From the NCBI GenBank assembly GCA_001786835.1, contig MFTO01000008.1, positions 1 through 33,132 on the forward strand: 33,132 bases of DNA, written 5' to 3'. This document shows positions 664-28,320 of the stretch, one piece after another (position 1 is the first letter of the stretch; every line of letters begins with the position of its first letter). Below the pieces are notes generated by a model. It saw only the letters and a program-made list of their open reading frames with translations. It made no database searches and had not been told where the DNA came from. This DNA comes from Candidatus Nomurabacteria bacterium RIFCSPHIGHO2_01_FULL_40_20. GTDB lineage: Bacteria > Patescibacteriota > Minisyncoccia > Phycocordibacterales > UBA9973. The translations under genes and the position numbers were made by a program.

Positions 664-1134
664 CTAGTCAAGTTTTTTAATACGCCTAATATGGCGCTCA
701 TCTTCAGAGAATTTTGTACTAAGAAAAAGCTCCACCGCGAATTTGGCTTCGTCTTCAGAAATAAAATTACCACCCAAAGATAAGACGTTTGCGTCATTGT
801 GCTCCCTAGCAAGTTTTATTATCTCAAAGCTATCTGACTTTTTTTCCCCAACATCTGGGAGTTCTTGACCATAGAAGACTGCAGCGCGAACTCCTTTAAC
901 TCTGTTTGCGCACATAGCTTCCCCTTGCCCAGACTTACCTGAAATTATTCCAAACGCACCTTTCTCGCTGGCAACACGTTCCGCTAGCGGTCTGATATAG
1001 TCTGGATAATCATCCGTAGCTACATAATTGTAAGGACCCATGTCCTCAATCTCATACCCGAGTAGAGAGAGATAAATTTTTAATTTCTCTTTTAATTCAT
1101 AACCTGCGTGATCTGTTGCTAAATATATTTTCAT
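664..1134 (-). CDS. rpiB: Ribose-5-phosphate isomerase B (RpiB/LacAB family)
   Basis: Interconverts ribose 5-phosphate and ribulose 5-phosphate in the pentose phosphate pathway. 156 aa, normal family length. Visible family features: ATDHAG at residues 6-11 (Asp8, His9 substrate contacts), the anion loop SGKSGQGEAMCANR at 65-78, and EHNDANVL at 110-117 (His111, Asn112). The usual E. coli catalytic cysteine of CGTGVG is Ser65 here, while Glu72 sits in a G-x-G-E motif like that of the mycobacterial type, where a glutamate is the base; activity is therefore still expected. The start ATG lies inside the right arm of a 68-base inverted repeat (1133-1200), so translation may be controlled by that structure. 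Confidence 0.93.
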   Translation of the reverse strand: MKIYLATDHAGYELKEKLKIYLSLLGYEIEDMGPYNYVATDDYPDYIRPLAERVASEKGAFGIISGKSGQGEAMCANRVKGVRAAVFYGQELPDVGEKKSDSFEIIKLAREHNDANVLSLGGNFISEDEAKFAVELFLSTKFSEDERHIRRIKKLD

Positions 1135-1200
1135 CCCGTTAGAAATTAATTAATTTATAATTTTTACTAATTTTCCCGTCCGTTGAATTTCTAACGGGAT
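1133..1200 (-). repeat. 68-base start-codon inverted repeat, copy 1 (rpiB leader)
   Basis: On the minus strand the element starts with ATCCCGTTAGAAATT (1200-1186) and ends with the exact reverse complement AATTTCTAACGGGAT (1147-1133), a perfect 15-bp stem. The last two bases are the A and T of the rpiB ATG. A middle segment AACGGACGGG (1184-1175) can pair instead with CCCGTT of the left arm, giving a local hairpin that frees the right arm. Same length and plan as the copies at 13161 and 24746. Confidence 0.9.
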
Positions 1201-13155: not shown

Positions 13156-13160
13156 AATGA

Positions 13161-13228
13161 ATCCCGTTTAGAAATTTTGATAACGGGAATAAGGATTAAA
13201 TTATTAATATTAAATTTCTAAACGGGAT
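13161..13228 (+). repeat. 68-base start-codon inverted repeat, copy 2 (def leader)
   Basis: ATCCCGTTTAGAAATTT (13161-13177) is the exact reverse complement of AAATTTCTAAACGGGAT (13212-13228), a 17-bp stem whose last two bases are the A and T of the def ATG. Middle segment AACGGG (13182-13187) can pair with CCCGTT of the left arm. Relative to the rpiB and hpf copies both arms carry one extra T/A pair, a compensatory change that supports pairing. Confidence 0.9.
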
Positions 13229-13805
13229 GAAGCAAATCTTGCAAAAAGAAGAACTGGTCTTGCGTAAAGTCGCGAAAGAAGTTCCCCTATCGCAAATCAA
13301 ATCTCCTAAAATTCAAAAAATACTAAAAGAAATGTCTGTCTCTCTCAAAAGTCAAGCCGATGGGGTGGCTATCGCGGCTCCGCAGATAGGATATTCTCTG
13401 TGCATCTTCGTCGTCTCGGGAAAAGTTTTTGAAAAAGATTTTTTGAAAAAAAGAACCTTCCCGACGTCCAACGTCGGGGAAAACGTCGGGGAAACGTCTA
13501 AAGATAACAACACCTCTCAGAGAGATTCCGCTGTGAAGAATATGGTTTTCATCAACCCGAAAATCTCCAAACTCTCAAAAGAGAAAGAATGGACTCCGGA
13601 AGGATGCCTCTCGGTGCGTTGGCTTTACGGCAAAACCTATCGCTCAAAAAAAGCGAGCATATCTGCTTACGATGAAAATAGCAAGAAATTTACCCGTGGG
13701 GCTTCGGGACTTCTGGCGCAAATTTTTCAGCACGAGACGGATCACTTAAACGGTATACTTTTTATAGACCATGCAAAAGATATCAAAGAGGAACTACCGA
13801 AGTAG
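13227..13805 (+). CDS. def: Peptide deformylase
   Basis: Metal-dependent enzyme that removes the formyl group from new proteins. 192 aa. All three motifs are visible: GVAIAAPQIG (residues 46-55), EGCLSV (125-130, metal ligand Cys127) and QHETDHLNG (168-176, metal ligands His169 and His173, catalytic Glu170). Residues about 77-104 form an extra loop between the first two motifs; its DNA holds a GC-rich palindrome (13459-13480) plus a further copy of AACGTCGGGGAA. The start ATG sits in the right arm of the 68-base repeat. It is followed by fmt, its functional partner in formyl-Met metabolism, 29 bases downstream. Confidence 0.95.
   Translation: MKQILQKEELVLRKVAKEVPLSQIKSPKIQKILKEMSVSLKSQADGVAIAAPQIGYSLCIFVVSGKVFEKDFLKKRTFPTSNVGENVGETSKDNNTSQRDSAVKNMVFINPKISKLSKEKEWTPEGCLSVRWLYGKTYRSKKASISAYDENSKKFTRGASGLLAQIFQHETDHLNGILFIDHAKDIKEELPK
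13459..13499 (+). repeat. GC-rich palindrome inserted in def
   Basis: TCCCGACGT (13459-13467) pairs with ACGTCGGGGA (13471-13480), then AACGTCGGGG repeats directly (13482-13491) and GACGTT-related sequence continues. It encodes the NVGENVGET part of a loop absent from typical Def. It belongs with the GTCGGGG-type palindromes at 17329 and 27888. Confidence 0.7.
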
Positions 13806-13834: not shown

Positions 13835-14755
13835 GTGAAAAAAGATAATATTAATTTTATATTCTTTGGGACACCGGACGTGGCAAGTGAGACGCTTGAA
13901 ATTTTAAAGCAAGCTGGATTTTTGCCCTCGCTCATCGTAACCGCGCCCGACCGCCCCGCCGGACGCAAAATGCTGTTAACTCCTCCACCTGTTAAAGCTT
14001 GGGCGATAGCAAACAATATTCCATACATTCAGCCAGAAAACTTAAAAATCAAAACGGAAATTGTTTTTACGACCTCTTCGCAGGCTGGCGAGCCGAGAAA
14101 AGCAATTTCCCAACAGGGAAATATGCGTGAAAGTAAAAATAATTTCCGTTTTGATTTTGCTATAGTTGTGGCTTATGGAAAAATTTTGTCGGAAGAAATA
14201 TTGAAAGCTCCTCGCTTGGGCTCAATAAACATTCACTATTCCCTACTTCCAAAATATCGCGGGGCTTCCCCTGTTGAATCCGCAATACTAAATGGCGACA
14301 CGGAAACAGGAGTATCCATCCAGCAAATGGAATTAAAGATGGATACAGGTCCAATCCTCGCGCAAGAAAAAGTGGCTATTATGCCCGACGAAAAAGCACC
14401 CGAGCTTCGCAAACGTTTGATAAAATTAGGCGGAGAGCTTTTGGTAAAAACATTGCCTGATTTTATAGAAGGAAAAATCACCCAAACACCTCAAGACGAA
14501 TCTCTTTCAACCTATTGCAAAAAAATGACCAAAGAAGACGGTCTAGTCAACTTGGAGGTTGAACCTCCAAGTGCGCTTTACAACAAGTTCCGCGCATACG
14601 CCACTTGGCCCCGCACTTACTTTTTTAAGGACGGCCTGCCTGCGCAGGCAGGTAAAAGAATAATTATCACAGATGCTGTATTAGAAAATAATCAGTTCAT
14701 TATAAAGAAAGTAATTCCCGAGGGCGGAAAAGAAAGAACTTATTCCGAGCTCTAG
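13835..14755 (+). CDS. fmt: Methionyl-tRNA formyltransferase with palindromic insertions
   Basis: Formylates initiator Met-tRNA. 306 aa with GTG start (MKKDNINFIFFGTPDVASE). The formyl-THF-binding core is intact: NIHYSLLPKYRGASP near residue 130 (Asn, His of the active site) and ETGVSIQQMELKMDTG near 152-167 with the catalytic Asp. The gene carries a 114-base hairpin element in frame at about residues 71-108 (the QAGEPRKAISQQGN stretch), splitting the segment before DFAIVVAYGKIL, and an LPAQAG insertion near residue 270 from an 18-base palindrome. It ends early at ...RTYSEL because the stop codon lies inside another palindrome, removing the usual last residues. Function is probably kept, since the insertions are in loops. 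Confidence 0.93.
   Translation: MKKDNINFIFFGTPDVASETLEILKQAGFLPSLIVTAPDRPAGRKMLLTPPPVKAWAIANNIPYIQPENLKIKTEIVFTTSSQAGEPRKAISQQGNMRESKNNFRFDFAIVVAYGKILSEEILKAPRLGSINIHYSLLPKYRGASPVESAILNGDTETGVSIQQMELKMDTGPILAQEKVAIMPDEKAPELRKRLIKLGGELLVKTLPDFIEGKITQTPQDESLSTYCKKMTKEDGLVNLEVEPPSALYNKFRAYATWPRTYFFKDGLPAQAGKRIIITDAVLENNQFIIKKVIPEGGKERTYSEL
14045..14158 (+). repeat. 114-base MITE-like hairpin element inside fmt
   Basis: Left arm 14045-14070 and right arm 14133-14158 are 26-base inverted copies with a single mismatch (a possible G-U pair). Between them lie two smaller hairpins, GGCT/AGCC (14083-14094) and ATTTCCC/GGGAAAT (14105-14122). The whole element is read through in frame and adds about 38 residues to Fmt where other family members have only a short loop. 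Confidence 0.85.
14550..14572 (+). repeat. 23-base palindrome inside fmt
   Basis: CTTGGAGGTT (14551-14560) and AACCTCCAAG (14562-14571) are perfect inverted copies around one G, extended by an A/T pair. It shares GAACCTCCAAG with the dnaE palindrome at 8930-8940. It does not lengthen the protein relative to the family. Confidence 0.7.
14635..14652 (+). repeat. 18-base perfect palindrome in fmt (LPAQAG)
   Basis: CCTGCCTGC followed directly by GCAGGCAGG. Read in frame as LPAQAG within a surface loop that other Fmt proteins lack. Confidence 0.8.
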
Positions 14756-16610: not shown

Positions 16611-16619
16611 ATCTTTTCT

Positions 16620-16682
16620 ATCCCGATTCTGATTAATCAGAATCGTGGATCCTCGATTTCTTAAAATTTAAGAAATCGGGAT
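16620..16682 (-). repeat. 63-base inverted repeat upstream of cysteine-rich paralogue 1
   Basis: Outer arms ATCCCGATT and AATCGGGAT close two perfect inner palindromes: CGATTTCTTAAA with TTTAAGAAATCG, and CGATTCTGATT with AATCAGAATCG (minus-strand order). The inner and outer stems share CGATT/AATCG, so only one arrangement can form at a time. It ends ten bases before the ATG. The ends match ATCCCG...CGGGAT of the 68-base family, but the interior differs. Confidence 0.8.
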
Positions 16683-16715
16683 AGTTCTGACAGTTTCGGT
16701 TTTCCACTTTTTCAT

Positions 16716-16743
16716 TTGACATATCTTTATGATTTGCTATAAT
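16716..16743 (+). promoter_or_regulatory. Consensus promoter with no plus-strand gene
   Basis: TTGACA (16716-16721), 16-base spacer, TATAAT (16738-16743). Both boxes are perfect consensus, the best promoter seen in the window, yet the next genes are on the minus strand. Predicted start is about 16750. Confidence 0.75.
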
Positions 16744-16749
16744 GGTAAT

Positions 16750-16801
16750 ATCCATAAGGAAACGCATCTCGTAGTCTTTCGTGTCTACGCGGTGCGTTTC
16801 C
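16750..16801 (+). ncRNA. Candidate short structured RNA from the orphan promoter
   Basis: Right after the promoter comes a long hairpin: GGAAACGCA (16758-16766) with TGCGTTTCC (16793-16801), a 3x3 internal loop, then CGTAG (16770-16774) with CTACG (16785-16789). There is no ORF. The 3' end is uncertain because only GTTTAG follows; a T-run is found at 16822-16827, in which case the RNA would overlap the 3' end of the NYN gene in antisense. The same hairpin could serve as the terminator of the NYN gene. Confidence 0.5.
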
Positions 16802-16809
16802 GTTTAGAC

Positions 16810-17295
16810 TCATCTCTTAAGTTTTTTGCTTAAATTATCCATTGAATATATTTTCTCTTTAGCTTCTTTCTTTAAAAGTTTTGAACAAGTTTTTACATAG
16901 GGACTTAAAACCAGTAAAAGTTTATCGTTTTCATATAAATATCTAACGAGAGAATAGAAATCTCCGTCGCTAGTTACAATAATCGCTTTGTCGTAATTAT
17001 CTTTTTCAAGAATAGCATAAAGTACTAGATCAGCATCACAATTACCCTTAACTTTACCTTCTCCATCAAGAATGACTGGTTTGAATATTAAAATATATCC
17101 TGCTTTTTGCAGGCTAGAATAAAGTTTTTGATTTGATTGAATAAATCCAATAAAAATATATGCTGTAGTAATATCGTACTTTTCTTTAAGGTGCACTCTA
17201 AATTTTATCCAGTCTAAATCCCAACCAAGAGATTTTATTCCTAAATGAACATTCTGTGCGTCTATAAAAGCATAATTATTTGATTCAACTTTCAT
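16810..17295 (-). CDS. NYN/LabA-type PIN-fold ribonuclease
   Basis: 161 aa. NYN domains are metal-dependent RNases of the PIN-like fold. The acidic active site is visible: Asp12 in FIDAQN, Asp87 and Asp89 in NCDADLVLYAI, and Asp110 and Asp112 in IVTSDGDFYSLVRYL. It fills nearly the whole protein, so there is no extra targeting domain, only a basic C-terminal tail (SKKLKR). It lies between two cysteine-rich paralogues on the same strand. A TAATAT box six bases before the ATG suggests its own leaderless promoter. It ends in TGA, supporting the standard code. Confidence 0.88.
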   Translation of the reverse strand: MKVESNNYAFIDAQNVHLGIKSLGWDLDWIKFRVHLKEKYDITTAYIFIGFIQSNQKLYSSLQKAGYILIFKPVILDGEGKVKGNCDADLVLYAILEKDNYDKAIIVTSDGDFYSLVRYLYENDKLLLVLSPYVKTCSKLLKKEAKEKIYSMDNLSKKLKR

Positions 17296-17301
17296 AGTTA
17301 T

Positions 17302-17307
17302 ATATTA
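17302..17307 (-). promoter_or_regulatory. -10 box of the NYN gene, leaderless
   Basis: Minus strand TAATAT, six bases before the ATG. No clear -35; the spacing to the ATG is the main support. Confidence 0.4.
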
Positions 17308-17328
17308 CCATACTTAATAAACCTCCTG

Positions 17329-17366
17329 CCCCGACGCTTTGGTCGGGGTCCCGACAGAATCGTCGG
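17329..17366. repeat. Twin GC-rich palindromes (GTCGGGG type)
   Basis: CCCCGAC (17329-17335) with GTCGGGG (17342-17348), then CCGAC (17351-17355) with GTCGG (17362-17366). They stand between the NYN gene and cysteine-rich paralogue 2 in otherwise AT-rich sequence. The first closely resembles the palindrome inside the GH130 gene at 27888-27908. Confidence 0.75.
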
Positions 17367-17374
17367 AATTGATA

Positions 17375-19099
17375 TCAATAGATTTCATTCTGATAACATT
17401 TCTCACAATACACTACTTCTGCTCGGTCGGGAGCGTATGAAGTTTCAAATTCCACTTCGCACTTACCTTCGTGGTGTGTATGCTTTTTATCACACATACA
17501 CTTCCGATGATAAAAATTAGGCGAGTTTCTTAGTGAGAGACGTTCATAATGTCGACAATTGGTACACAACCGAGGTAAAGGAATGTTCATTCTTTTGCAA
17601 AAATCAAGTTCCATTTGTATTATACGGAACGCGCCAGTGCATTCGTGCTTACAATTTCCAGTATGTTTACACTCAATTACCTCGTTAAGAATATTTACAT
17701 CTACATCTCTGATATGGTTAGGAATCTGCGTGGCAATTAAAGTAATTTTGTAATCTTGCTTTACGGTTTCATACCACAAAAATCCTACAACTTCCGCCTC
17801 TTCCTTATTGAGCGGAAAAAATTCATAAGCCTGTGTTATTTGATACGGAAAAGGAGAGAGCGAAGCCGGAAAAAATTCTCCATATTCTTTTGTACTTTTC
17901 ATATGTTTAATTATCTTTGGCACGATTTTTTCATACTCCTCTTTTGTGTATTGTTTGTTTAAAATACAGTGCTGTTTTTTACGAAGAGAAACACATCCGA
18001 ACAGATCAGAAGAATTATGGCAAAAAACACAATAACTTAAATTTTGCACATTGACATAGGATTGGACAGTAAATTTAACATTGTAAACACCCTCTCCGAC
18101 AATTAAAGATTCATAGACAAGTTCCGTGTTATCACCCCAATTAGTATAATCGTAGCAATCTTTAACTGGCCCAGTAAGGATATTTTGGACGAATTTACTA
18201 TCCTCTACTCCTCTTACACGATAACAGTTTTTTGAGTTTTTTGATTCATAAATGTAATCGCCGGAAGCGTTTACGTTGTGATACCCGTGTATATACTTTT
18301 GTGGGTAATTCAACCAGTGTTGATATGCTTTGACTTTTAAATTTTCAATTGATTTGTAGGATCCTAAATTAAACTTATTAATTTTTTTCAAGTATTCTTC
18401 TTTGCTGTATTGTTCATTAAAAATGCAATAAGATTTATTACGAAGACCAATTGAAGCAATACAGCTATTGCAACCAACACAATCTTTACATAAAATCATT
18501 TCTTGGCAACTCTCGCAGTCAACTGAGAAGAACGTTTTATAACAAATAATTGTATTTACGTTCCCGTAAGAAAGTTCACATCCATTTGTCATATGACTAT
18601 CAAAACACTGCTTTGATGCTTGGTCCCAGATAAGATAGGCAGAATCCTCTGTATATGCGACACCTCTGCATAAATAACAATTTTTTATACTACTGGCGTT
18701 AGCACAATAATGACTGTTTACTACATTGGTCATTGAGTGAGAAGGCATTGGTACTTTGGAAAGCAACTCTTTGAATTGCTCAAAAAAGGGCTTGGAAAAA
18801 TCATAATCTACACCGTACTCAACAGGGTCCCAGGCATCTGAAATCCAATAATCTCGATCATAAATTTTTACCGGACTTTCTTCTGGAAACAAGGAAAAAA
18901 TTACTTCCCCCGTGCGCGCATCTTTTTTGCGAAACATATGCCAATCGTTACGCCAAGCAACCATGCGTTGCAGGCGACACTCCGGGCAAAAAGTCGGCGG
19001 TGGAACTTTGATTTTCTCATAAAATAAAAAATCGTCTGGCTCGATTACAAAGTCTTTTTTACAATTTTGGCATATTCTATTTTCGCTTTTATATTCCAT
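17375..19099 (-). CDS. Cysteine-rich double-zinc-finger protein, paralogue 2
   Basis: 574 aa, function unknown, full-length homologue of paralogue 1. N-terminal finger CQNCKKDFVI ... VPPPTFCPECRLQR; DAWDPVEYGVDYDFSKPFFEQ; middle motifs IGLRNKSYCIFNEQYSKEEY and FGCVSLRKKQHCILNKQY; C-terminal CKHTGNCKHECTGAF, then IPLPRLCTNCRHYERL, an extra His/Cys-rich insert KCMCDKKHTHHEGKC, and YCEKCYQNEIY. The His-rich insert is not in paralogue 1 and may add a metal site. A good Shine-Dalgarno (AGGAAA, four bases before ATG) supports the start. Upstream is a hairpin at 19108-19145. Ends in TGA. Confidence 0.85.
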   Translation of the reverse strand: MEYKSENRICQNCKKDFVIEPDDFLFYEKIKVPPPTFCPECRLQRMVAWRNDWHMFRKKDARTGEVIFSLFPEESPVKIYDRDYWISDAWDPVEYGVDYDFSKPFFEQFKELLSKVPMPSHSMTNVVNSHYCANASSIKNCYLCRGVAYTEDSAYLIWDQASKQCFDSHMTNGCELSYGNVNTIICYKTFFSVDCESCQEMILCKDCVGCNSCIASIGLRNKSYCIFNEQYSKEEYLKKINKFNLGSYKSIENLKVKAYQHWLNYPQKYIHGYHNVNASGDYIYESKNSKNCYRVRGVEDSKFVQNILTGPVKDCYDYTNWGDNTELVYESLIVGEGVYNVKFTVQSYVNVQNLSYCVFCHNSSDLFGCVSLRKKQHCILNKQYTKEEYEKIVPKIIKHMKSTKEYGEFFPASLSPFPYQITQAYEFFPLNKEEAEVVGFLWYETVKQDYKITLIATQIPNHIRDVDVNILNEVIECKHTGNCKHECTGAFRIIQMELDFCKRMNIPLPRLCTNCRHYERLSLRNSPNFYHRKCMCDKKHTHHEGKCEVEFETSYAPDRAEVVYCEKCYQNEIY

Positions 19100-19107
19100 A
19101 CTTTCCT

Positions 19108-19145
19108 AATTACCTAACTTTTGCGACCGCTAGAGTTAAGTAATT
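19108..19145 (-). promoter_or_regulatory. Leader hairpin of cysteine-rich paralogue 2
   Basis: Minus strand: AATTACTTAACT (19145-19134) pairs with AGTTAGGTAATT (19119-19108) with one mismatch. The loop holds TAGCGGTCGCA, which differs at two positions from TAGCGATAGCA in the loop of the hairpin before paralogue 4. The stem ends just before the AGGAAA ribosome site. Confidence 0.55.
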
Positions 19146-19154
19146 TATGTTAAC

Positions 19155-20909
19155 TTAGTACACCTCTTGTTGATAACATTTTTCACAATAAACTATTTCC
19201 GGGCGCTCGGGAGCATAACCAGTCTTAAATATTTCCGGGCAAGGAGAATCTTTATGGTCATGGGATACGGTATTTTTGTATTTACCTGTTTCATCAGAAA
19301 TACCGGCACACATACAGGTTCTCTCGTGCAAAAATAACTTGAGTCTGTCGCTGATTCGGCGTTCGAATCTGCATTCGTTACATATTCTAGGAAGTGGAAG
19401 TTTTTCTTTTTTGTAAAAAATTAGTTCATTTCCTAATATACGGTAAGGATTCTTGCAATTTTCACATTCCAATACTTCTTTTAGAATTTGTTCGATACCA
19501 TCATGAGCGGAATCTGGGATTTCCGAAGCCTTTTGGGTGATTTTATACTCGCCCTTTTCGGTTTCTACCCATGCGTAGTTTTTTGCTTCTGCTTCTTCTT
19601 TGGTTATAGAAAAATGCTGAGTTGCTAAAGTATTGTTATATCCAAAAGGTGAGAACTCTAACGGGAAAAACTCTCCATATTTGTAAACTAAACCTAGAGA
19701 ATCTATATAAGGCATTTCGTCCATATGGCGTTTGATTTTTGGTACAAGTTCTTCGTACTCCTCTTTTGTATATTGTTTATTAAAGATGCAATATTGCTTC
19801 TTCTTCAGCCCTACACAACCGAAACAATCAGAACAACTAAAAAGATGCACACAGTATTCCAAATTCCTGCAAGCCGGCCAGCAATTTCTGGAAAGCTTGT
19901 TATTGTAAGAATTCTCTCCACATTCTATGATTTCATAACAAAGCTCTGTATCTTCACCCCAATTACTGACATCGTAATTGTCTTTATTACCCGGCAATTG
20001 CATGTATTGGCAAAAGCGCATATTTTCGCTTCCTCTGATTAAATAACTGTCGTTTACATATTTACAATCTGTGACATAAGAACCAGTTGAATTTAAATTT
20101 CTTACCCCTTGCTGATGTCTGGTAATTTGCGTGTCCCAAAAAGATCTGGCTTTCTTCCTTGCTTCTTCCAGTCCGGAAGCCGTATCGAGTCGCATTTTAG
20201 CAATTTCTTTTTCATATTCTTCTTTTGTATATTGCTGGTTAAATATGCAATGAGAAGATTTACGTAAATTAACACAACCAAAACAATCACTGCACCCGAG
20301 ACAGTCTCTGGAGAACCAAACATTCCTAGAGTCCGCAGACATTATCGTGAAATAACATTGATAGCATTTAGAAAGCCAGAAACACTCGTAACACCGCTCG
20401 GATTCATTTATATGAGAATTATCCACGCAATCCTTGCAACGATCAATCGCATTGCCATACATACAATCCTCCGAGTAGCTAGAATTAACGACCAAGTAGC
20501 TATTTTTCAACGCCGTGGCATTGAAGGCGTACGGGCTGTTGACCATTCTGATAACATTAAAATTATACATGGGGACTTTTTTCTCGAGCTCTTGCTGTTG
20601 TTCAAAAAAACTTCTAGAGAAATCATACTCTTGACCGTATTCCATAGCATCCCAATTATCGCTAAGCCAAGCATCCCGAGTAATAATTTTTCTCCCGCTT
20701 TCCGCCGGATAAGTAGAAAAAATATCCTGGCCAGTCAGAGCATCTTTCACTTTAAAAAGCTTCCTTTCATTTCTAAAAGCCAACCTCCTCTGTGCTCGGC
20801 ACAGATGGCAAAAAGTCGGTGGAGGAACTTTTATTTTTTCATAAAACGAAAAATCATCCGGCTCGATGGTGAAATCATTTTTACAATTCTGACAATTTTT
20901 GGTTTCCAT
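19155..20909 (-). CDS. Cysteine-rich double-zinc-finger protein, paralogue 3
   Basis: 584 aa, function unknown. N-terminal finger CQNCKNDFTI ... VPPPTFCHLCRAQRR; DNWDAMEYGQEYDFSRSFFEQ; middle motifs FGCVNLRKSSHCIFNQQY and FGCVGLKKKQYCIFNKQYTKEEY; C-terminal CENCKNPYRI, LPLPRICNECRFERR, a longer insert with CMCAGISDETGKYKN, and YCEKCYQQEVY. The CENCKNPYRI stretch makes the similarity of the C-terminal and N-terminal fingers plain. It starts METKNCQNC without the usual KSE residues. No Shine-Dalgarno is seen. The gap to paralogue 2 is 55 bases, so the two may be co-transcribed. Confidence 0.85.
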   Translation of the reverse strand: METKNCQNCKNDFTIEPDDFSFYEKIKVPPPTFCHLCRAQRRLAFRNERKLFKVKDALTGQDIFSTYPAESGRKIITRDAWLSDNWDAMEYGQEYDFSRSFFEQQQELEKKVPMYNFNVIRMVNSPYAFNATALKNSYLVVNSSYSEDCMYGNAIDRCKDCVDNSHINESERCYECFWLSKCYQCYFTIMSADSRNVWFSRDCLGCSDCFGCVNLRKSSHCIFNQQYTKEEYEKEIAKMRLDTASGLEEARKKARSFWDTQITRHQQGVRNLNSTGSYVTDCKYVNDSYLIRGSENMRFCQYMQLPGNKDNYDVSNWGEDTELCYEIIECGENSYNNKLSRNCWPACRNLEYCVHLFSCSDCFGCVGLKKKQYCIFNKQYTKEEYEELVPKIKRHMDEMPYIDSLGLVYKYGEFFPLEFSPFGYNNTLATQHFSITKEEAEAKNYAWVETEKGEYKITQKASEIPDSAHDGIEQILKEVLECENCKNPYRILGNELIFYKKEKLPLPRICNECRFERRISDRLKLFLHERTCMCAGISDETGKYKNTVSHDHKDSPCPEIFKTGYAPERPEIVYCEKCYQQEVY

Positions 20910-20921
20910 AAGTCTTTTATA

Positions 20922-20995
20922 TTATCTCATAATTAATCCACGAGTGAAACTCACGAACTAAATAATGAGGATAACCAACTTTCATTGGTTATCCT
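20922..20995 (-). terminator. Hairpin terminator of the small membrane gene, with possible alternative pairing
   Basis: AGGATAACCAA (20968-20978) and TTGGTTATCCT (20985-20995) form an 11-bp perfect stem six bases after the stop of the 21001-21210 gene. On the minus strand it is followed by the T-rich but imperfect CATTATTTAG. The downstream side TTATCCTCATTATT can also pair with AATTATGAGATAA (20934-20922) just before paralogue 3, so two structures compete. Confidence 0.6.
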
Positions 20996-21000
20996 AACTT

Positions 21001-21210
21001 TTAATGCTGGAAAATTTCTTTCTCAGTTAAGGGGTACGGCTGCATCTGGTGAAAGATTTGAGTACGAATATAGTCAGGATCTTTCATCAGTTCGATTTGC
21101 TTTTTAAGCAGATCATTTTCCTTTTCACACTGTATGCCCTTATCGTACTGATAAATAGAAAACACAGTTATAAGAAGGAGGACTACCCGGCAAAGCAATA
21201 ACTTTTTCAT
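21001..21210 (-). CDS. Small single-span membrane protein, possibly DivIC/FtsB-like
   Basis: 69 aa from the ATG at 21208-21210. A short basic start (MKKLLLCR) leads into one membrane segment (about residues 8-22), then a coiled-coil-prone stretch ending in LLKKQIELMKDPDYIRTQIF. The K-D-P-D-Y-I pattern after a short coiled coil resembles the FtsB/DivIC cell-division proteins, but the protein is shorter and no other division gene is near, so this is only a suggestion. A good promoter (TTGACT, 17 bases, TATTAT) lies upstream and excludes a longer TTG start at 21243. A terminator hairpin follows directly. Confidence 0.65.
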   Translation of the reverse strand: MKKLLLCRVVLLLITVFSIYQYDKGIQCEKENDLLKKQIELMKDPDYIRTQIFHQMQPYPLTEKEIFQH

Positions 21211-21234
21211 AATTATAAGGATTTGTTTAATTAA

Positions 21235-21263
21235 ATAATACAATCTTTTTTACTAATAGTCAA
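21235..21263 (-). promoter_or_regulatory. Promoter of the small membrane gene
   Basis: Minus strand: TTGACT (21263-21258), 17-base spacer, TATTAT (21240-21235). The leader is about 20 bases. It is divergent from the regulator promoter at 21339-21367. Confidence 0.7.
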
Positions 21264-21286
21264 AAATAATACTGAAAAATTGCTTT

Positions 21287-21297
21287 ATTTACTGTAA
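21287..21297. promoter_or_regulatory. Possible operator between divergent promoters
   Basis: TTTACTGTAAA is a small perfect palindrome around one base, lying between the two divergent promoters and close to ATTGCTTTATTT and ATGCTTATTTT, which are similar to each other. It could be the binding site of the regulator encoded next to it; this is inference only. Confidence 0.3.
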
Positions 21298-21338
21298 AAA
21301 TGCTTATTTTATAAGATTAAAATAGTGTCAAATAAAAG

Positions 21339-21367
21339 TTGACAAAAATACTCTAATTTGCTAAGAT
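21339..21367 (+). promoter_or_regulatory. Promoter of the TrmB-like regulator, leaderless
   Basis: TTGACA (21339-21344), 17-base spacer, TAAGAT (21362-21367), six bases, ATG at 21374. Strong match, and the RNA should start at the A of ATG. Confidence 0.8.
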
Positions 21368-21373
21368 ATAAGT

Positions 21374-22147
21374 ATGGACTTAAAAAACTTTGAACAACTG
21401 GGGCTTAACCAAACCGAGATCAAAATACTCAAGTGTATCTTTGAATTCGGCACCATATCCCCCGCGCTCGTCGCCAAGCAAACTGGGCTCAAGCGCCCGA
21501 CGGTGTATGCTGGTGCGGAGGGCTTGATAGAATCTGGATTTATCCGAGAAGATATTTCCGGAAAAAATATTCGCTACACAGCGCTTTACGAAACTGGTTT
21601 TAAAAACTATTTAATATCTCAAAAAAGAAAATTAGCAGAAAAAGAAGCGTTGATAACTGAACTTGCCAATACTCTAGAGAAAACTCCCCGTCCGCGCGGA
21701 TACAATATACCAAAGGTGACAAGAATAGAAGGCAAAGAAGAAATATTGGATTTTTTATATACTCAAACACCCGTGTGGAATGAAAGTATAATAAAGACAC
21801 ATGCCCACACATGGTGGGGCTTTCAAGACCACATTTTTGTTGAAGATAAAGAATATAGAAAATGGATTAAATGGTACTGGAATACCGCGCCAGAAAAAAT
21901 AGACTTAAATCTTTTTTCTAATGACTCGGAAATTGAAAAAACACGTGAAGTGCAGACTATAGATAGGCGAAGACATATAAAATTTTGGAAAGGTGATAAA
22001 ATCACTGCAACAGAGTGGATTGTCGGAGAATACATTATCACTATCGTACTCGATGGCACACATCACACTCTCATAGAAACCCGCGACCAAATTCTAGCCG
22101 AGAACCTGCGTAACGTTTTCAAATTCGCTTGGAGTGCTGTTTCGTAA
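21374..22147 (+). CDS. TrmB-like winged-helix transcriptional regulator
   Basis: 257 aa. An N-terminal winged helix (residues about 5-75) begins LGLNQTEIKILKCIFEFG and has the recognition-helix region SPALVAKQTGLKRPTVYAGAEGLIESGFI, here quoted in parts as VAKQTGLKRPTVYAG. The remainder carries a TrmB-type effector region, with EGKEEILDFLYTQTP near 117-131. The natural ligand cannot be read from sequence. It is the only plus-strand gene among the cysteine-rich genes and faces the small membrane gene, sharing a 160-base divergent promoter region that may hold its operator. Start is fixed by the promoter six bases upstream. Confidence 0.85.
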   Translation: MDLKNFEQLGLNQTEIKILKCIFEFGTISPALVAKQTGLKRPTVYAGAEGLIESGFIREDISGKNIRYTALYETGFKNYLISQKRKLAEKEALITELANTLEKTPRPRGYNIPKVTRIEGKEEILDFLYTQTPVWNESIIKTHAHTWWGFQDHIFVEDKEYRKWIKWYWNTAPEKIDLNLFSNDSEIEKTREVQTIDRRRHIKFWKGDKITATEWIVGEYIITIVLDGTHHTLIETRDQILAENLRNVFKFAWSAVS

Positions 22148-22155
22148 AAAGAAAT

Positions 22156-22350
22156 TTATTTTTTCTGAATCATCGGCACGCCAAGATCGCGACAGATTTT
22201 TCTGCCAGTAAAGGTATTTATTTCAGAATGTCTCGGGATAGAAGAAACCCTGCTGTTTTCTGGATTAAAATAAATACTATGGGAATTTCCCTCTCTTAGA
22301 AAGACCACACCATTTTTTCGGAGATGTAAGATTAGGTCGGTGCGCTTCAT
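22156..22350 (-). CDS. hicA: HicA-family toxin, second module
   Basis: 64 aa, a complete small HicA. Typical features: MKRTDLILHLRKNGVVFLREG, the active-site region GNSHSIYFNPE with His24, and the closing pattern SIPRHSEINTFTGRKICRDLGV that occurs in many bacterial HicA proteins. It follows its antitoxin gene by 13 bases on the same strand. It is only distantly similar to the HicA at 9960-10199, so the two modules are not a recent duplication. Confidence 0.88.
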   Translation of the reverse strand: MKRTDLILHLRKNGVVFLREGNSHSIYFNPENSRVSSIPRHSEINTFTGRKICRDLGVPMIQKK

Positions 22351-22363
22351 AGAGAGAAAGAAA

Positions 22364-22582
22364 TTAAAAAGATAGTACTTCCTTTTTTATAAAACCAGGA
22401 CCTGCTTCTTTTAAAACTACGGAACGCTGGGTTTCTAGCACTAGCTCTAAGGCTTCTTTCAAGTTTTCGCGAGCCTCGCTCAAAGTGCGCCCTTGGGTAT
22501 TAACCCCAGGCACTTCCTCAATCCAAGCGGCATAAAACTTGCCTACCTTTTTAAACAAAGCTGTAAAATTTCTTGATTTCAT
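22364..22582 (-). CDS. hicB: HicB-family antitoxin, second module
   Basis: 72 aa. The partial RNase-H-like HicB fold is recognisable: FTALFKKVGKFYAAWIEEVPGVNTQG, with the family W-I-E-E-V-P-G-V motif at residues 20-27, then the helix TLSEARENLKEALELVLE. It is short and lacks a visible C-terminal DNA-binding domain, so autoregulation may be weak or absent. The ATG lies six bases after a TAAAAT box. It ends close to hicA; the pair stands between the regulator and paralogue 4. Confidence 0.88.
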   Translation of the reverse strand: MKSRNFTALFKKVGKFYAAWIEEVPGVNTQGRTLSEARENLKEALELVLETQRSVVLKEAGPGFIKKEVLSF

Positions 22583-22588
22583 AGATTT

Positions 22589-22617
22589 ATTTTACCATAT
22601 TTGATTTTTTAAAACAA
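22589..22617 (-). promoter_or_regulatory. Promoter of the second hicB-hicA pair, leaderless
   Basis: Minus strand: TTGTTT (22617-22612), 17-base spacer, TAAAAT (22594-22589) with a TG extension (TGGTAAAAT), six bases, ATG. Confidence 0.65.
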
Positions 22618-22620
22618 ATT

Positions 22621-24306
22621 CTAATAAACCTCCTGCTGGTAACATTTTTCGCAATAGATTATAGGCGCATAAGATTCTGTGTAGACTGTCTCTACTTCTA
22701 AGTCACACTTTGAACAATTTCGTTTGATTATTTTTAATAATGGACGCTTCTGTAAGCGTTTAGTGTGACGCACATCAAAGCAAGCCCGAGATAACGGCAA
22801 GTCCATTCTTCTATAGAAAGATAATTCGTTTTCCGTAATTCTATACGCTCCTGTGGAATAAGCTTTATCTTTTTCCACGCAACCTATTACTTCTTTCAGT
22901 ATAGAGTCTGTAACTTCTGCTATAGTTTCTGGAAGATCTTTGCCTTCTATAGTTATATCATAATCTTTCTTTTCCCGGTCTTTCCATCTATAACCTCTCT
23001 TTAGAGCTTCTTCTTTAGACAAAGGGAAAAAGTCTACGGCAGCCGTTTCATTGTAAGCAAAAGGAGAAATATCAGGTGGGAAAAATTCTCCATATTCACT
23101 TGTATTTTTCATATGCTCTATTATTTTTTCTTTCATTTTTTCGTATTCTTCTTTACTGTATTGTTTGTTTAAAATAGAATATTCGCCCTTCTTTAGTCCT
23201 ATACAACCAAAACAATTCGCGGAACTTGGACATGAATCGCAATAATAAAGATCATGGGCACTCATCCAACACTGAGAGCAAAAGAAAATTCTGGAATCAT
23301 TTATACCGCAGTTAGCTGATTCATAGATAAGTTCTGAAGAATCTCCCCACTGAAAATGATCCATGCAATCTTGTTCATTGAATGCAAAATAAATATATCT
23401 GCAGTCTTTTAAATTCACGCAGCTGAAAGAATTTTTTACATTTTCGCAATTCAAAAACCAATTACCTAAAACTTTACTTGATTTTAAGGACATAATCGCC
23501 TTTTGGGGAAACTTCTTCCTAAATTCGGCAAACTTAGTCTCCATTTGAGTAGTGCCTAAAACCGTGTTCAACTTAAGTTCCTTGAGTCTCCTAGAATATT
23601 CTTCTTTAGAATATTGCTCATTAAAAATACAAAATTGCTTGTTAATTAAATTCACACAACTGACACAGTTCGAGCAGTTACGACAGGAGTATAGAAAAAA
23701 TGAATCTCTACATTCATTTGATTCTTGAGAGAATAATGTTTTATAGCATTTATTACAGTCTATACATTCATAACAAAGTTCGGAATAATTTACGTTAAAA
23801 CAATCAACGCAATTTTTAATACCAAGAGCTGTATAGATGTAAAGCGAATCTTCGCAGTCAGAAGCTCGGAAAACCATGTAGCAATTCTTTAAGTCATGGA
23901 CACGATGAGTGTATTCACTATTTATTGAAAAACCTTGCCGAACAAGCGCCATGCGAGGAACCTTATTAAATAGTTCTTTAAACTGTTCAAAGAACGGTTT
24001 TTTGAAATCATAATCCATGCCATACTGGTACGGATCCCATTGATCTGAGTAAAATTCTTTCGTTTCATATACTGGAAATGGTGCTTCCGGCGGATACATA
24101 CTAAAAATATCGACTCCACTCAAGTCAGATTTTCTTTTGTAGAATACTCGTTCGTTAGCACCAATCATCCGCCTTATTTGCCTACACTCTGGACAAAAAG
24201 TCGGCGGAGGAACTTTGATTTTTTCGTAAAAAGAAAAGTCATCCGGCTCGATGGTGAAATCTTGCTTGCAGTTCTGACAATTTTTAGTTTCGCTTTTATG
24301 TTCCAT
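22621..24306 (-). CDS. Cysteine-rich double-zinc-finger protein, paralogue 4
   Basis: 561 aa from the ATG at 24304-24306, chosen because GGAG stands five bases before it and MEHKSE matches paralogue 1; a start six codons upstream is less likely. N-terminal finger CQNCKQDFTI ... VPPPTFCPECRQIRR; DQWDPYQYGMDYDFKKPFFEQ; middle motifs VSCVNLINKQFCIFNEQYSKEEY-like (CVNLINKQFCIFNEQY) and FGCIGLKKGEYSILNKQY, where the Cys of YCILN is Ser; C-terminal part ENELSFYRRMDLPLSRACFDVRHTKR has lost one Cys of the second finger (CFDV instead of CPNC), so that site may be damaged. Ends with YCEKCYQQEVY. Function unknown. Confidence 0.85.
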   Translation of the reverse strand: MEHKSETKNCQNCKQDFTIEPDDFSFYEKIKVPPPTFCPECRQIRRMIGANERVFYKRKSDLSGVDIFSMYPPEAPFPVYETKEFYSDQWDPYQYGMDYDFKKPFFEQFKELFNKVPRMALVRQGFSINSEYTHRVHDLKNCYMVFRASDCEDSLYIYTALGIKNCVDCFNVNYSELCYECIDCNKCYKTLFSQESNECRDSFFLYSCRNCSNCVSCVNLINKQFCIFNEQYSKEEYSRRLKELKLNTVLGTTQMETKFAEFRKKFPQKAIMSLKSSKVLGNWFLNCENVKNSFSCVNLKDCRYIYFAFNEQDCMDHFQWGDSSELIYESANCGINDSRIFFCSQCWMSAHDLYYCDSCPSSANCFGCIGLKKGEYSILNKQYSKEEYEKMKEKIIEHMKNTSEYGEFFPPDISPFAYNETAAVDFFPLSKEEALKRGYRWKDREKKDYDITIEGKDLPETIAEVTDSILKEVIGCVEKDKAYSTGAYRITENELSFYRRMDLPLSRACFDVRHTKRLQKRPLLKIIKRNCSKCDLEVETVYTESYAPIIYCEKCYQQEVY

Positions 24307-24316
24307 CTTCACTCCA

Positions 24317-24350
24317 ATACTCAAATTCTGCTATCGCTAATTTTGAGTAT
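24317..24350 (-). promoter_or_regulatory. Leader hairpin of cysteine-rich paralogue 4
   Basis: Minus strand: ATACTCAAA (24350-24342) and TTTGAGTAT (24325-24317) form a perfect 9-bp stem. The loop contains TAGCGATAGCA, like the loop before paralogue 2. It lies between the hpf stop and the GGAG ribosome site of paralogue 4. Confidence 0.55.
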
Positions 24351-24354: not shown

Positions 24355-24747
24355 TTATTTCTTCCAAGGGCGGTAGCTCCTGAGGCCTTTCATCATGTCT
24401 TTTACTTTGCGGGCGCCACGGAAAAATAGGGCTTCTTTTTTGTTTTTCTTCTTGGTAATGTCTTGAAAAACTTTTTCTTTGATTTCATCTATCGCGGTTT
24501 TCTCGTCTTCCGCGTCCGCGCTGGCGTAAAATTTCTCACCGTTGATATTTATCAGGCAGTCCGCGTGAAAAACTTGCCCTTGATTATGATGTTTGGTGCT
24601 TTTGGAAATTTCAAAATTGATACTGACTTCCCCGCCTCCCTTCTCGGTATTCGCCAAAAATTTCTCCAGATTGGTGACTTTTTTAAGGGCATAATCTTTG
24701 ACATCCTCGGTTAAATTTATATTTTTGCTATGAATATTTATGTTCAT
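24355..24747 (-). CDS. hpf: Ribosome hibernation promoting factor (HPF/RaiA family, short form)
   Basis: 130 aa; binds the small ribosomal subunit decoding region and stabilises idle ribosomes. The fold beta-alpha-beta-beta-beta-alpha is recognisable: MNINIHSKNINLTEDVKDYALKK with MNINIHSKNINLTED at residues 1-15, then a Lys-rich helix, EVSINFEISKSTKHH, GQVFHADCLINING, EKFYASADAEDEKTAID. A basic tail (KDMMKGLRSYRPWKK) follows, but not the long-form dimerisation domain. The ATG is inside the right arm of the 68-base repeat at 24746-24813, the third gene with this arrangement, which is interesting for a stress-linked factor. Confidence 0.92.
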   Translation of the reverse strand: MNINIHSKNINLTEDVKDYALKKVTNLEKFLANTEKGGGEVSINFEISKSTKHHNQGQVFHADCLININGEKFYASADAEDEKTAIDEIKEKVFQDITKKKNKKEALFFRGARKVKDMMKGLRSYRPWKK

Positions 24748-24813
24748 CCCGTTAGAAATTTATTTAATAATCAACCTTCACTACAACCCCGTTTTGTGAA
24801 TTTCTAACGGGAT
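24746..24813 (-). repeat. 68-base start-codon inverted repeat, copy 3 (hpf leader)
   Basis: Minus strand: ATCCCGTTAGAAATT (24813-24799) and AATTTCTAACGGGAT (24760-24746) form a perfect 15-bp stem, identical in both arms to the rpiB copy. Middle AAAACGGGG (24795-24787) can pair with CCCGTT of the left arm. The remaining loop sequence is unrelated to the rpiB copy, so only the pairing segments and total length are conserved. Confidence 0.9.
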
Positions 24814-24850
24814 TTATCCTTTGATTATATCATCCGCTTTTACGTCTCAC

Positions 24851-26776
24851 TCAATTACGCAAGGCTTTTAAAATTATGTCTAGTTTCATTGTAGCCACCC
24901 CCACCACTTTATCCGCTCCGCCATAGTAAATATAAAGCAGTCCTTTGCGCACAATCACCCCGCACGGAAAAACCACATTATTCACAGAACCGCTTTTCTC
25001 ATATTCCATCTCTGGTTCAAAAATCGGGTCGGTAGAACGAGCAAGAACTATTGCCGGATCTTTGAGGTCGAGTAGCACCGCCCCCACCCGATAAGTGTTG
25101 TGACTGCGAGAAACTCCATGATAAAGAAGAAGCCAACCATACCTCGTCTTTATCGGTGGAGTAGCGATACCGACTTTGGCAGAATCCCAAGTATTGTTCC
25201 GTGGGCCGATAATGCGGATACATTTTTTCACTTCCTCCTTCTCTAAATCAAGCGAATGGATATAGTCTCCGCAGACTTCTCCACCCACTCTGTGGGCAAC
25301 CAAATACCCGTCGCGCAATTTTTCAGGAAATATGCAAGTGTCTTTGTCATCCAAATCGCGCGGAGTGATAAGCGAGGGTTTCGCCCAATTCCACGCTCTA
25401 GCCAAAAAATCTTTTAGAGTTATCGAAGTAATCGCTACTCGGGGCGGACCGATAGAATCATAAGCAGTATAACACATATAAAGGGTGCTTCCGATTTTGG
25501 TAATCCGCGGGTCTTCGCATCCGGAAAAACCGTTTTCAATTTTTTTCTTTTCAAAATCCTCGCGCGGAGTATAAATCGGATCTTCCAATCTCTCTATGAT
25601 ATCCGTGCCGTTTTTGCTAACCGCAAGCCCAATCGTGGAAGTATTGTCAGCGGAAAACGCTCGATAAAGAATATACACTTTGCCCTTGAGGTCTATCGCC
25701 GCCGGATTGAAAGTAGCTTGAGCTTCCCAAGCGTTTTCGGACCTAGGAATAATGATAGGATTTTTCGCGAAACGTTTGAAGAAAAACTTTTCGCTTGACT
25801 GCGGGCGCATACTGCCGAGCAAATCGCGGAGGTTGACTCGAGCCGAGCAGACTGTGGTGTCGGTAGCGCCGTAGTAAATCACCAGCTCGCCCCCTTCTAC
25901 GAGCGCGCCGGTGGGAAAAATAACATTGTCGACATAGCCCGACAGTTCATAGGGCTCTTCCGGCACAAGTATCGGTCCGCGGGTCCGACCGATAATTTTT
26001 TGAGGATCTTGCAAGTGGAGCAAAAGAGCTTCAACCCCGAATACTACCCCCAGATGACTATTCTGGTCGGTGCGAATATAATTTTGAATGTGGGAGTAAA
26101 CCAAGAGCCAACCGTACTTGGTTTTAATCGGGGGCGCGCCGACTTCGGCATGGTCAAATTCTCCCCGCTCCGGTTTAATAGTATACAGGTCCATATTTTT
26201 CTCCCACTCCCGCCAAAAATCCGGCGACCAAAGGTCTTCAATTTTATCCAAGTAAGCAAAAACCATCTTGGCCGGAGGCGTGTCGGTGCGCGCGGAAAAA
26301 ATCACCACGATTTTTCCGCCAATCCGTTCGGGAAAAAGGGTCATGGCTTTAGCGTTAAATGGAGTGACAAAATGCCTCTCCCCTATGTTTTTTAAATCCT
26401 TGGAAACCGCCACCGCCACCTTGATACCTTCTGGGCCGAAAGGATATTTGGAAAGCGCGGTATAAAAAATGTAGTACTTGCCTTCAAAAAAAGTCACTCG
26501 CGGGTCCTCACAGCCGTACAAGTCCCACTCTTCCCCGGGGGCGAGAAATATCCGGCGATTGGTAAAATTTACGCCGTCTCTACTCTCGGCTATGCCCACC
26601 ACCGAAATTTGTTTCTGTTCGCGCATATGGTCTATGGCAGACATAGCCCGATACAGTCCATAGACAGTTTCCCCTTTTTTGACCACGCACATATTGAAAA
26701 CAGCGAAGCTTTCCCAATAGTGATTGCGATTTGGGACAAGTATGGGATTGTGCTCGGATCTTTTAGTTACAAACAT
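24851..26776 (-). CDS. Fused double GH130 beta-mannoside phosphorylase
   Basis: 641 aa: two complete GH130 five-bladed beta-propeller domains in one chain (about 1-323 and 329-641). GH130 enzymes split beta-1,2- or beta-1,4-mannosides with phosphate, giving mannose 1-phosphate; some members are hydrolases. Each half has the GCEDPR motif with the catalytic Asp (Asp91 and Asp422) and the closing pattern of aromatic blades (KTKYGWLLVYSHI and KTRYGWLLLYHGV). Both halves therefore look active. No signal peptide, so it acts in the cytoplasm. It starts seven bases after the single-domain GH130 gene and ends the mannose locus. Exact substrate linkage is unknown. Confidence 0.9.
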   Translation of the reverse strand: MFVTKRSEHNPILVPNRNHYWESFAVFNMCVVKKGETVYGLYRAMSAIDHMREQKQISVVGIAESRDGVNFTNRRIFLAPGEEWDLYGCEDPRVTFFEGKYYIFYTALSKYPFGPEGIKVAVAVSKDLKNIGERHFVTPFNAKAMTLFPERIGGKIVVIFSARTDTPPAKMVFAYLDKIEDLWSPDFWREWEKNMDLYTIKPERGEFDHAEVGAPPIKTKYGWLLVYSHIQNYIRTDQNSHLGVVFGVEALLLHLQDPQKIIGRTRGPILVPEEPYELSGYVDNVIFPTGALVEGGELVIYYGATDTTVCSARVNLRDLLGSMRPQSSEKFFFKRFAKNPIIIPRSENAWEAQATFNPAAIDLKGKVYILYRAFSADNTSTIGLAVSKNGTDIIERLEDPIYTPREDFEKKKIENGFSGCEDPRITKIGSTLYMCYTAYDSIGPPRVAITSITLKDFLARAWNWAKPSLITPRDLDDKDTCIFPEKLRDGYLVAHRVGGEVCGDYIHSLDLEKEEVKKCIRIIGPRNNTWDSAKVGIATPPIKTRYGWLLLYHGVSRSHNTYRVGAVLLDLKDPAIVLARSTDPIFEPEMEYEKSGSVNNVVFPCGVIVRKGLLYIYYGGADKVVGVATMKLDIILKALRN

Positions 26777-26783
26777 TTTAGTT

Positions 26784-27980
26784 TTACTCTGCCCTGAAAA
26801 GTTTTTCCTGTTTTAATTTTATCGGCTTTTGCTGTTTCAAATTCTCCAGCATCTCTTTCAAATCAATAGACGCGAGCGCCACGTATTTATCTCCACCGCC
26901 ATAATAAACCAGAAGCTTGCCGTCTTTGACCACTGCGCCGGAGGCGTAAATAATTCCCGGTTTGTAATTATTCTCATACCAATGGTCCGGTTTGAGTATT
27001 GGATTTTGCGCTCGGTATAAAACTTTTTCCGGATTTTTTAGATCCAAGAGCATTGCGCCGACTTTATATCTGCCCCCGTCATTTCTATCCATGGCGTGGT
27101 AAAGCAAAAGCCAGCCGTCCTTGGTTTTAATCGGAGGCGAAGCGGCGCTACGGGTGCGATTGTGCCAAGCCACACTGTGGTCCGGCAACATCTGCGGGTC
27201 GGGAGCTTGCTCGGGACTCGGGGTCTCTGTCTCATCTAAATTATTTATGAAAGCAATATGCACTCTACTTGGGTCGCCTTTGTCTAGATTATAAAACAGC
27301 GCAAATTTTCCGTTTATTTTCTCCGGGAAAAGCACCCAGTTTTTCTGCCGACTTCCGCGCGAAAGATAGGAAAAATTCTTCCAGAGCCATTTTTTCGCGA
27401 GCAAATCCTCTTCGGCAATAGAAGTCACCGCCACCCGCATAGAATGCCAGCCGTTAAACATATTGAAAGTCATGTAAACTATGCCATCAATAATTACCGC
27501 TCTCGGGTCTTCGCACCCGCCCCAACCTCCACCGGAAGAATAAGCTTTGGGGTCGTAGACTAAACGCGCCGGCGTTGTCATCGGCCAGTGCTTTTGCGCT
27601 TCCTCAAAATTCTGGGCGACATAAACGGGATGCGTCAGTCGAATATCAAAATTTATTCCGTCAGGACTGGAAGCATAACCAATTCTAGAAATACCGTCGG
27701 GCCCGAGCGCGCGATAAAAAAGATGCACTCGCCCGCCGGAGACTACCGCCGCCGGATTGAAAGTGGCAAACGATTCCCAAGGGTAAGGCGTGGGCACGAT
27801 AATAGGATTCCTGACCGAGCGCTTGAGTTTTATCTCGCCTTTTTTCGCCCCCCTCTTATAAACTCTTTTTTTAACAACAACCTTTTTCCCCGATGCTTTC
27901 GATCGGGGCCCCGACCCCTGATTTTTTATCTTTGGGCGTCGGGACTTAATTTTTGTTTTTTTCTTTTTAAGCTCTGCCAT
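26784..27980 (-). CDS. GH130 beta-mannoside phosphorylase with basic N-terminal extension
   Basis: 398 aa from ATG 27978-27980 (MAELKKKK); this start overlaps the end of the cupin gene by 14 bases, suggesting translational coupling, and is preferred to a TTG four codons upstream. Residues 1-54 are Lys/Arg-rich and low in complexity; part of it (about 13-32) is encoded by a GC-rich palindrome at 27888-27943. The GH130 domain follows: NPIIVPTPYPWESFATFNPA, GCEDPRAVI at 155-163 (Asp158 likely catalytic), FPEKINGKFALFYN, and PPIKTKDGWLLLYHAMD. Expected to release mannose 1-phosphate. The basic tail could bind RNA or envelope polymers, or just be tolerated insertion sequence. Confidence 0.9.
   Translation of the reverse strand: MAELKKKKTKIKSRRPKIKNQGSGPRSKASGKKVVVKKRVYKRGAKKGEIKLKRSVRNPIIVPTPYPWESFATFNPAAVVSGGRVHLFYRALGPDGISRIGYASSPDGINFDIRLTHPVYVAQNFEEAQKHWPMTTPARLVYDPKAYSSGGGWGGCEDPRAVIIDGIVYMTFNMFNGWHSMRVAVTSIAEEDLLAKKWLWKNFSYLSRGSRQKNWVLFPEKINGKFALFYNLDKGDPSRVHIAFINNLDETETPSPEQAPDPQMLPDHSVAWHNRTRSAASPPIKTKDGWLLLYHAMDRNDGGRYKVGAMLLDLKNPEKVLYRAQNPILKPDHWYENNYKPGIIYASGAVVKDGKLLVYYGGGDKYVALASIDLKEMLENLKQQKPIKLKQEKLFRAE
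27888..27943. repeat. GC-rich palindromes in the 5' end of the GH130 gene
   Basis: CCCCGAT (27888-27894) with ATCGGGG (27902-27908), then CCCGAC (27910-27915) with GTCGGG (27938-27943). The first hairpin loop, GCTTTCG, is nearly that of 17329-17348 (GCTTTG), so the two are likely the same repeat family. Confidence 0.7.
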
Positions 27981-28320
27981 ATTTGTCTTCAAATCGAACT
28001 TCGTCGATTTCTTCTAAAAATTCACCGATAGCAATTTCTAGCATCGCCACGCCATAAGGTCCAGCTACCATCCTGTGTTTGGCGCCAATATTTATTGTGT
28101 ATTCCTTGCCTTCCGTAGCTTCAAAAGACATGTCATCAATTTCCACGGTGCCAGAACCGGAAATTATGTGCCAAAATTCAGCGCGCTTCTTGTGACTTTG
28201 TAAAGACAGCTTTTCATTTGGATTTACAGTGATAATTTTTACTGTGGATGGAGTATTCAAAGTAAACTGGCGAAAATTTCCCCAAGGTCTATTCACTTCA
28301 AAAGGCTTCACTTCTTCCAT
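27967..28320 (-). CDS. Cupin protein, type II mannose-6-phosphate isomerase-like
   Basis: 117 aa from the ATG at 28318-28320 (MEEVKPFEVNRPWG). It matches the stand-alone C-terminal domain of ManC-type bifunctional enzymes: NRPWGNFRQF, KIITVNPNEKLSLQSHKKRAEFWHI (metal-binding His/Glu cluster), GKEYTINIGAKHRM with the further His, and the closing EFLEEIDEVRFEDKYGR. It would interconvert mannose 6-phosphate and fructose 6-phosphate. Next to GH130 genes this links released mannose to glycolysis, though a phosphomannomutase is not in the window. A TATAAT box six bases before this ATG excludes the upstream ATG at 28326, which would overlap the predicted RNA start. Confidence 0.85.
   Translation of the reverse strand: MEEVKPFEVNRPWGNFRQFTLNTPSTVKIITVNPNEKLSLQSHKKRAEFWHIISGSGTVEIDDMSFEATEGKEYTINIGAKHRMVAGPYGVAMLEIAIGEFLEEIDEVRFEDKYGRA

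Follow-up and report, generated by a model that had tools for sequence, protein, structure and literature searches.

A palindrome at the start codon of hpf in a Nomurabacteria genome is probably a copy of a MITE-like mobile element

We analyzed a 33,132-nt stretch of a Candidatus Nomurabacteria draft genome (contig MFTO01000008.1, positions 1 to 33,132), referred to here as the window. Its minus strand carries hpf (24355..24747), encoding a ribosome hibernation-promoting factor of the HPF/YfiA family (TIGR00741). At the start of this gene lies a 66-bp palindromic element (24747..24812, minus strand) with the terminal inverted repeats TCCCGTTAGAAATT and AATTTCTAACGGGA, so arranged that the minus strand reads ATAAA, then TCCCGTTAGAAATT-loop-AATTTCTAACGGGA, then TGAAC. 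The hpf start codon is located inside the right arm: the element's terminal A (24747) and the adjoining TGAA (24743..24746, minus strand), which is the right copy of a target duplication, together make up the ATG. The left copy (24813..24816, minus strand) has decayed to TAAA, matching at three of four bases, and the upstream copy of the ATG has decayed to ATA. Within the loop, a middle arm, AAACGGGG (24787..24794, minus strand), can pair with the left arm. Further upstream is a -10-like box, TATAAT (24824..24829, minus strand), also found 5' of the ATG in most element-free hpf orthologues; the minus-strand sequence leading into the gene is TATAAT CAAAGG A TAAA, followed by TCCCGTTAGAAATTCACAAAACGGGGTTGTAGTGAAGGTTGATTATTAAATAAATTTCTAACGGGA and TGAACATAAAT.

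Two sister copies, both 66 bp long, occupy the same position at other genes of the window. The first (1134..1199, minus strand) precedes rpiB, identified by family match as ribose-5-phosphate isomerase B (664..1134, minus strand), about 23.6 kb from hpf. It is flanked by TGAA on both sides (1130-1133 and 1200-1203, minus strand) and holds the middle arm GGACGGGA in its loop (1174-1181, minus strand). The second (13162..13227, plus strand) precedes def, matched to the peptide deformylase family (13227..13805, plus strand). Its arms are those of the hpf copy plus one extra base pair (CCCGTTTAG/CTAAACGGG), its two target duplications both read TGAA (13158-13161 and 13228-13231, plus strand), and its loop contains the middle arm TAACGGGA (13181-13188, plus strand); in the window this copy reads gaactgaaataaaATGAA-element-TGAAGC. 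An earlier reading of the sequence alone had observed that the hpf and rpiB arms are identical, which we confirmed, and had called the loops unrelated. The latter is slightly too strong, since the two sequences differ yet share A/T-richness and a CGGG middle arm. The left, middle and right arrangement described there is real, follows the orientation of the gene and is seen again in other phyla. The short direct repeats on either side of the hpf, rpiB and def copies had not been remarked upon, nor had the position of the start codon within the right arm.

To place these copies in their genomic context, we searched the whole 551-kb draft genome. The motif TTTCTAACGGGATG, allowing at most one mismatch, occurred 15 times, compared with 0 for the reversed control, and the paired-arm pattern gave 8 strand-matches, compared with 0 in the control; the hpf-type arms are therefore not a product of chance. 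Overall, the genome holds about 10 element sites, at rpiB, hpf, def, dnaG, aspartyl-tRNA synthetase, rplS, secG, gatC, ddl and one unnamed gene (gene families were matched for nine of them). The element is non-coding and present in several copies per genome. In congeners, identical ends enclose unrelated loops. Over all copies, element sizes range from 32 to 123 bp.

The element's borders carry the marks of insertion. Its ends are terminal inverted repeats of 11-15 bp, TCCCGTTAGAA...TTCTAACGGGA, and the unit can be written as T CCCGTTAGAA...TTCTAACGGG A with a 4-bp target duplication. We examined the duplication in 105 copies that were picked without requiring an ATG after the right arm. The TNNA duplication was perfect in 87 of these, as opposed to a mean of 11.6 and a maximum of 24 with shuffled partners, while the next four bases outward were identical in just 5. 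Among 165 distinct copies a single register stood out, its inner four bases matching at 81-86%. Orthologous sites were empty at hpf in 27 of 30 congeners, where a TATAAT-like box mostly lies about 6-8 nt 5' of the ATG, and at def in 29 of 30. In the other two hpf carriers, G011 and G017, the loops are different, and the G017 copy retains a perfect TGAA duplication. Terminal inverted repeats, a fixed 4-bp duplication, empty sites, and short non-coding sequence in multiple copies are features of a miniature inverted-repeat transposable element (MITE).

These data bear directly on the proposal that the hairpin is a dedicated RNA switch, conserved in front of hpf, def and rpiB together for control in growth and starvation. 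An effect on translation is plausible because the start codon is part of the right arm, and the left arm could pair with either the middle or the right arm. A regulon of the three genes, however, is contradicted by the rarity of the element at hpf and def across the genus, by the three different loops at the three hpf carriers, and by the target duplications. Moreover, relatives carry copies elsewhere, both at the start codons of unrelated housekeeping genes (glyA, purC, tsaD, atpA, leuS, mreB and ssb, identified by eye) and at some other sites, which is the outcome that the sequence-only reading had itself named as refuting its proposal. In related bacteria the element thus stands at other genes and is no switch dedicated to starvation, and we regard this explanation as extremely improbable. 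The sequence-only reading had also taken identical arms around differing loops as a sign of function rather than of a fresh copy; at hpf they are equally the typical appearance of terminal inverted repeats in a MITE family. Besides hpf, a further recurrent target is atpA: in three congeners (loci L353, L354 and L366) the element sits on the start codon of an apparent atpA, judged by eye, with at least two different loops.

The element is spread widely but patchily, through Patescibacteria, Omnitrophota and Planctomycetota. Of 379 genomes from across the phylum, 11 held an exact pattern of this size class, a patchiness expected of a mobile element. Carriage by viruses was set aside, a scan of IMG/VR having matched a single contig. 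One Omnitrophota genome (G084) has five copies of 52 bp (L309, L313, L314, L316 and L320) that are identical to one another and lie in nearly identical flanking sequence, apparently as part of a larger repeat.

The duplicated sequence shows how insertion at a start codon can be tolerated. A target A-TGNA becomes A-TGNA-[T...A]-TGNA, in which the element's terminal A and the duplicated TGNA form an in-frame ATG before the gene and the original ATG is left upstream. With the ATG recreated in frame, the gene body survives the insertion. The upstream ATG copy translates as MNPVRN. Some proteins of these groups may be annotated with such a start; a text search of the literature for this peptide found nothing.

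The start codon of an open frame was precisely the site of 46 of 63 genus copies, 15 of 30 Omnitrophota copies and 4 of 12 Planctomycetota copies; genomes of the last two phyla were reached through matches with an ATG after the right arm, and their other copies were then taken unconditionally. As a rough expectation, based on our own gene calls in one window, start codons make up 15 of its 413 start-codon and intergenic TNNA sites (about 4%), the intergenic sites being about 26-fold more numerous. Elsewhere, 13 of the 105 copies sit in an open frame, whereas those at hpf, rpiB and def precede the gene. A TANNNT box was found 6-8 nt 5' of the upstream ATG copy in 20 of the 46 genus start-codon copies, against about 5.5 expected from other distances. 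Given this enrichment, the start codon and the transcription start are indistinguishable as the target.

The same counts could in principle reflect a plain MITE with no translational role, whose start-codon copies dominate as other insertions are lethal in compact genomes and whose middle arm is an internal transposition site. Selection alone could purge intragenic copies, and some copies are indeed located in frame or at other positions. The counts do not tell targeting from survival, but survival alone must explain why so few copies are found at the roughly 26-fold commoner intergenic sites of the window.

The interior of the element points beyond a symmetrical palindrome. In gene orientation, the loops of 41 copies contain YGGG and those of 2 contain the reverse motif, CCCR, with loops of related copies counting as dependent observations. 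Short genus copies matched TAACGGGA at six or more of eight positions in 21 of 26 cases, compared with 14% of shuffled loops, and Omnitrophota copies did so in 14 of 15, compared with 11%. The 115-123-bp genus copies mostly have no clear middle arm. In short start-codon copies, the middle arm is oriented and capable of pairing with the left arm. Immediately 5' of the right arm, moreover, a Shine-Dalgarno (SD)-like core was present under a loose definition in 13 of 15 Omnitrophota and 4 of 4 Planctomycetota copies, while the mirror position had it in 1 of 15 and 0 of 4, respectively. A strict definition gave 7 of 15 versus 1 of 15 at the mirror position. One example reads GGAGG-TTTCTAACGGG-ATG. 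Among genus start-codon copies, hpf included, the tract was seen in 1 of 46, and a baseline from ordinary genes was uninformative given few open reading frames (ORFs) and uncertain starts. Symmetrical ends alone would not yield a gene-oriented middle arm and SD-like tract; together with the dominance of start-codon copies, this leads us to lean against the plain MITE, which we nevertheless hold to be a real possibility. Separately, we noted that TTTCTAA resembles the 3' end of 16S rRNA; no 16S match was found in the draft genome.

The minimal-energy fold is the left-right stem in every full-length start-codon copy, so an open state would not be the equilibrium one and would have to be kinetic or ribosome-assisted. 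During transcription, the middle arm may capture the left arm first, which would leave the right arm and the AUG open; in Omnitrophota and Planctomycetota this pairing would also leave the SD-like tract open. Once complete, the left-right stem is the more stable fold. Pairing of the left arm in the 5' fragment was dropped as a folding test when shuffled loops passed it too, and the motif and orientation counts were used instead. We infer that the element is a mobile translation-initiation module limiting its own damage, not a dedicated hibernation switch.

At some genes, an old insertion might have been kept as a regulatory RNA hairpin. The clearest case is rplS, where five genes from five species belong to one subfamily. 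Their left arm and ATCAG are invariant and the right arm, ATTTT(C/T)TAATGG(G/A)ATG, is nearly so, while the loop shows hardly any conservation. Changes from C to T maintain G-U pairing in RNA but break the DNA palindrome, a combination of conserved arms and drifting loops consistent with such domestication. Compensatory arm changes were set aside as proof of RNA function, as end variants from a mobile pool or palindrome correction would give the same pattern. On a tree of rplS proteins, however, the five carriers are scattered, their 5 changes being no improvement on shuffled labels, so descent is not established and repeated gain of one subfamily is possible. The middle arm, in addition, has been lost from three of the five copies, and the evidence concerns rplS, not hpf. 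These findings suggest occasional later retention of copies as an RNA hairpin, as at rplS, although for such domestication at some genes we place the chances slightly below even.

We then asked what might move the element. By end pattern, no autonomous parent with the same ends was found among the matches listed for 21 genomes (exact patterns, draft assemblies), and ends paired within 5 kb in relatives' loci were only pairs resembling neighboring short copies. Repetitive extragenic palindromes (REPs), moved by Y1 (RAYT/IS200-like) transposases, are also short and dispersed, and Y1 transposases occur in 27 of 36 genus genomes. Unlike REPs, the copies described here are flanked by a 4-bp target duplication and show no association with Y1 genes. 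The window's genome has no Y1 match, a complete arm pair lay near a Y1 gene in only 1 of 30 Y1 loci, and element and Y1 copy numbers are uncorrelated (rho -0.02). Mobilization as a REP is thus highly unlikely, and we rejected the element's identification as one on the lack of Y1 linkage or correlation.

Comparison with other known systems gave partial likenesses. Rickettsia palindromic elements (RPEs) are in-frame palindromes tolerated at genes in small genomes (PMC10969869), and some 50-71-bp copies here are likewise open throughout and in frame. RPEs, however, are about 150 bp long and known for in-frame insertion inside proteins, whereas the hpf type precedes the gene and rebuilds its start codon; none of the hpf, rpiB and def copies is an in-frame insertion within coding sequence. 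The element could also work like a translational riboswitch or RNA thermometer, with alternative pairing exposing or masking the AUG, but differs from these in being placed by insertion. Rfam returned 0 families at gathering score and only weak sub-threshold matches, the best of them to unrelated families, and a known RNA family identity was accordingly rejected.

Several other repeats were observed in the window. In-frame peptide inserts such as PTENVG or PTSNVGENVG occur in def (13227-13805, residues ~75-94) and, elsewhere in the genome, at the rplS C-terminus and in dnaG. The def insert is missing from the G018 and G011 orthologues, and the tail of rplS has matches in congeners to long open frames that are unrelated. 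Probably, these inserts represent another mobile palindrome, similar to RPEs and located within proteins. A row of four related minus-strand ORFs, each about 570 aa long (14877-24324; repeat families D4-D8), is by eye rich in cysteine-like motifs. Also on the minus strand, a 1352-aa ORF (2260-6318) is made up of tandem repeats spaced at about 50 and 150 nt (families D1-D3). Family D20 has related repeats at 25121, 26096 and 27099 (24851-27992, minus strand), which suggest paralogous domains in adjoining ORFs. A 26-bp inverted repeat, 96% complementary with its arms 62 nt apart, lies at 14045-14158 within the ORF 13835-14755.

Taken together, our results make it probable that the hpf hairpin is a copy of a short, non-coding, palindromic, MITE-like mobile element; its copies on start codons would, in our reading, act as imported translation-initiation regions. 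Bacterial MITEs are the nearest known kind, sharing short non-coding sequence, terminal inverted repeats, target duplication, many copies and patchy spread (PMC10969869). The hpf-type element differs from them in that no parent transposon of the same ends was found among the matches listed for the genomes covered and copies go down to 32 bp, as well as in its strong occurrence on start codons, the rebuilt ATG, the oriented internal arm, and the SD-like tract in two phyla. Start codons are nowhere mentioned in the MITE review text (PMC10969869). A literature search, with most subscription journals outside its reach, returned no paper describing the element, and as far as this literature shows, start-codon rebuilding and an oriented initiation module are undescribed. 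A fuller model is more tentative, and we consider it rather unlikely in its entirety: a mobile initiation cassette of Patescibacteria, Omnitrophota and Planctomycetota that homes in on start codons, or on the point where transcription of leaderless genes begins, recreates the ATG, supplies its own initiation region and keeps the AUG open by a kinetic left-middle hairpin, moved by an enzyme that would need no autonomous copy and handle as little as 32 bp.

If our interpretation is correct, recreating the start codon would be a mobile element's solution to the problem of inserting at essential genes. Apparently leaderless genes of tiny-genome bacteria would repeatedly gain structured leaders in this way. 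The insertions would also be a possible source of N-termini such as MNPVRN... in predicted proteins of these groups, and a "conserved hairpin" located at a start codon in genomes of this kind may in fact be an insertion.
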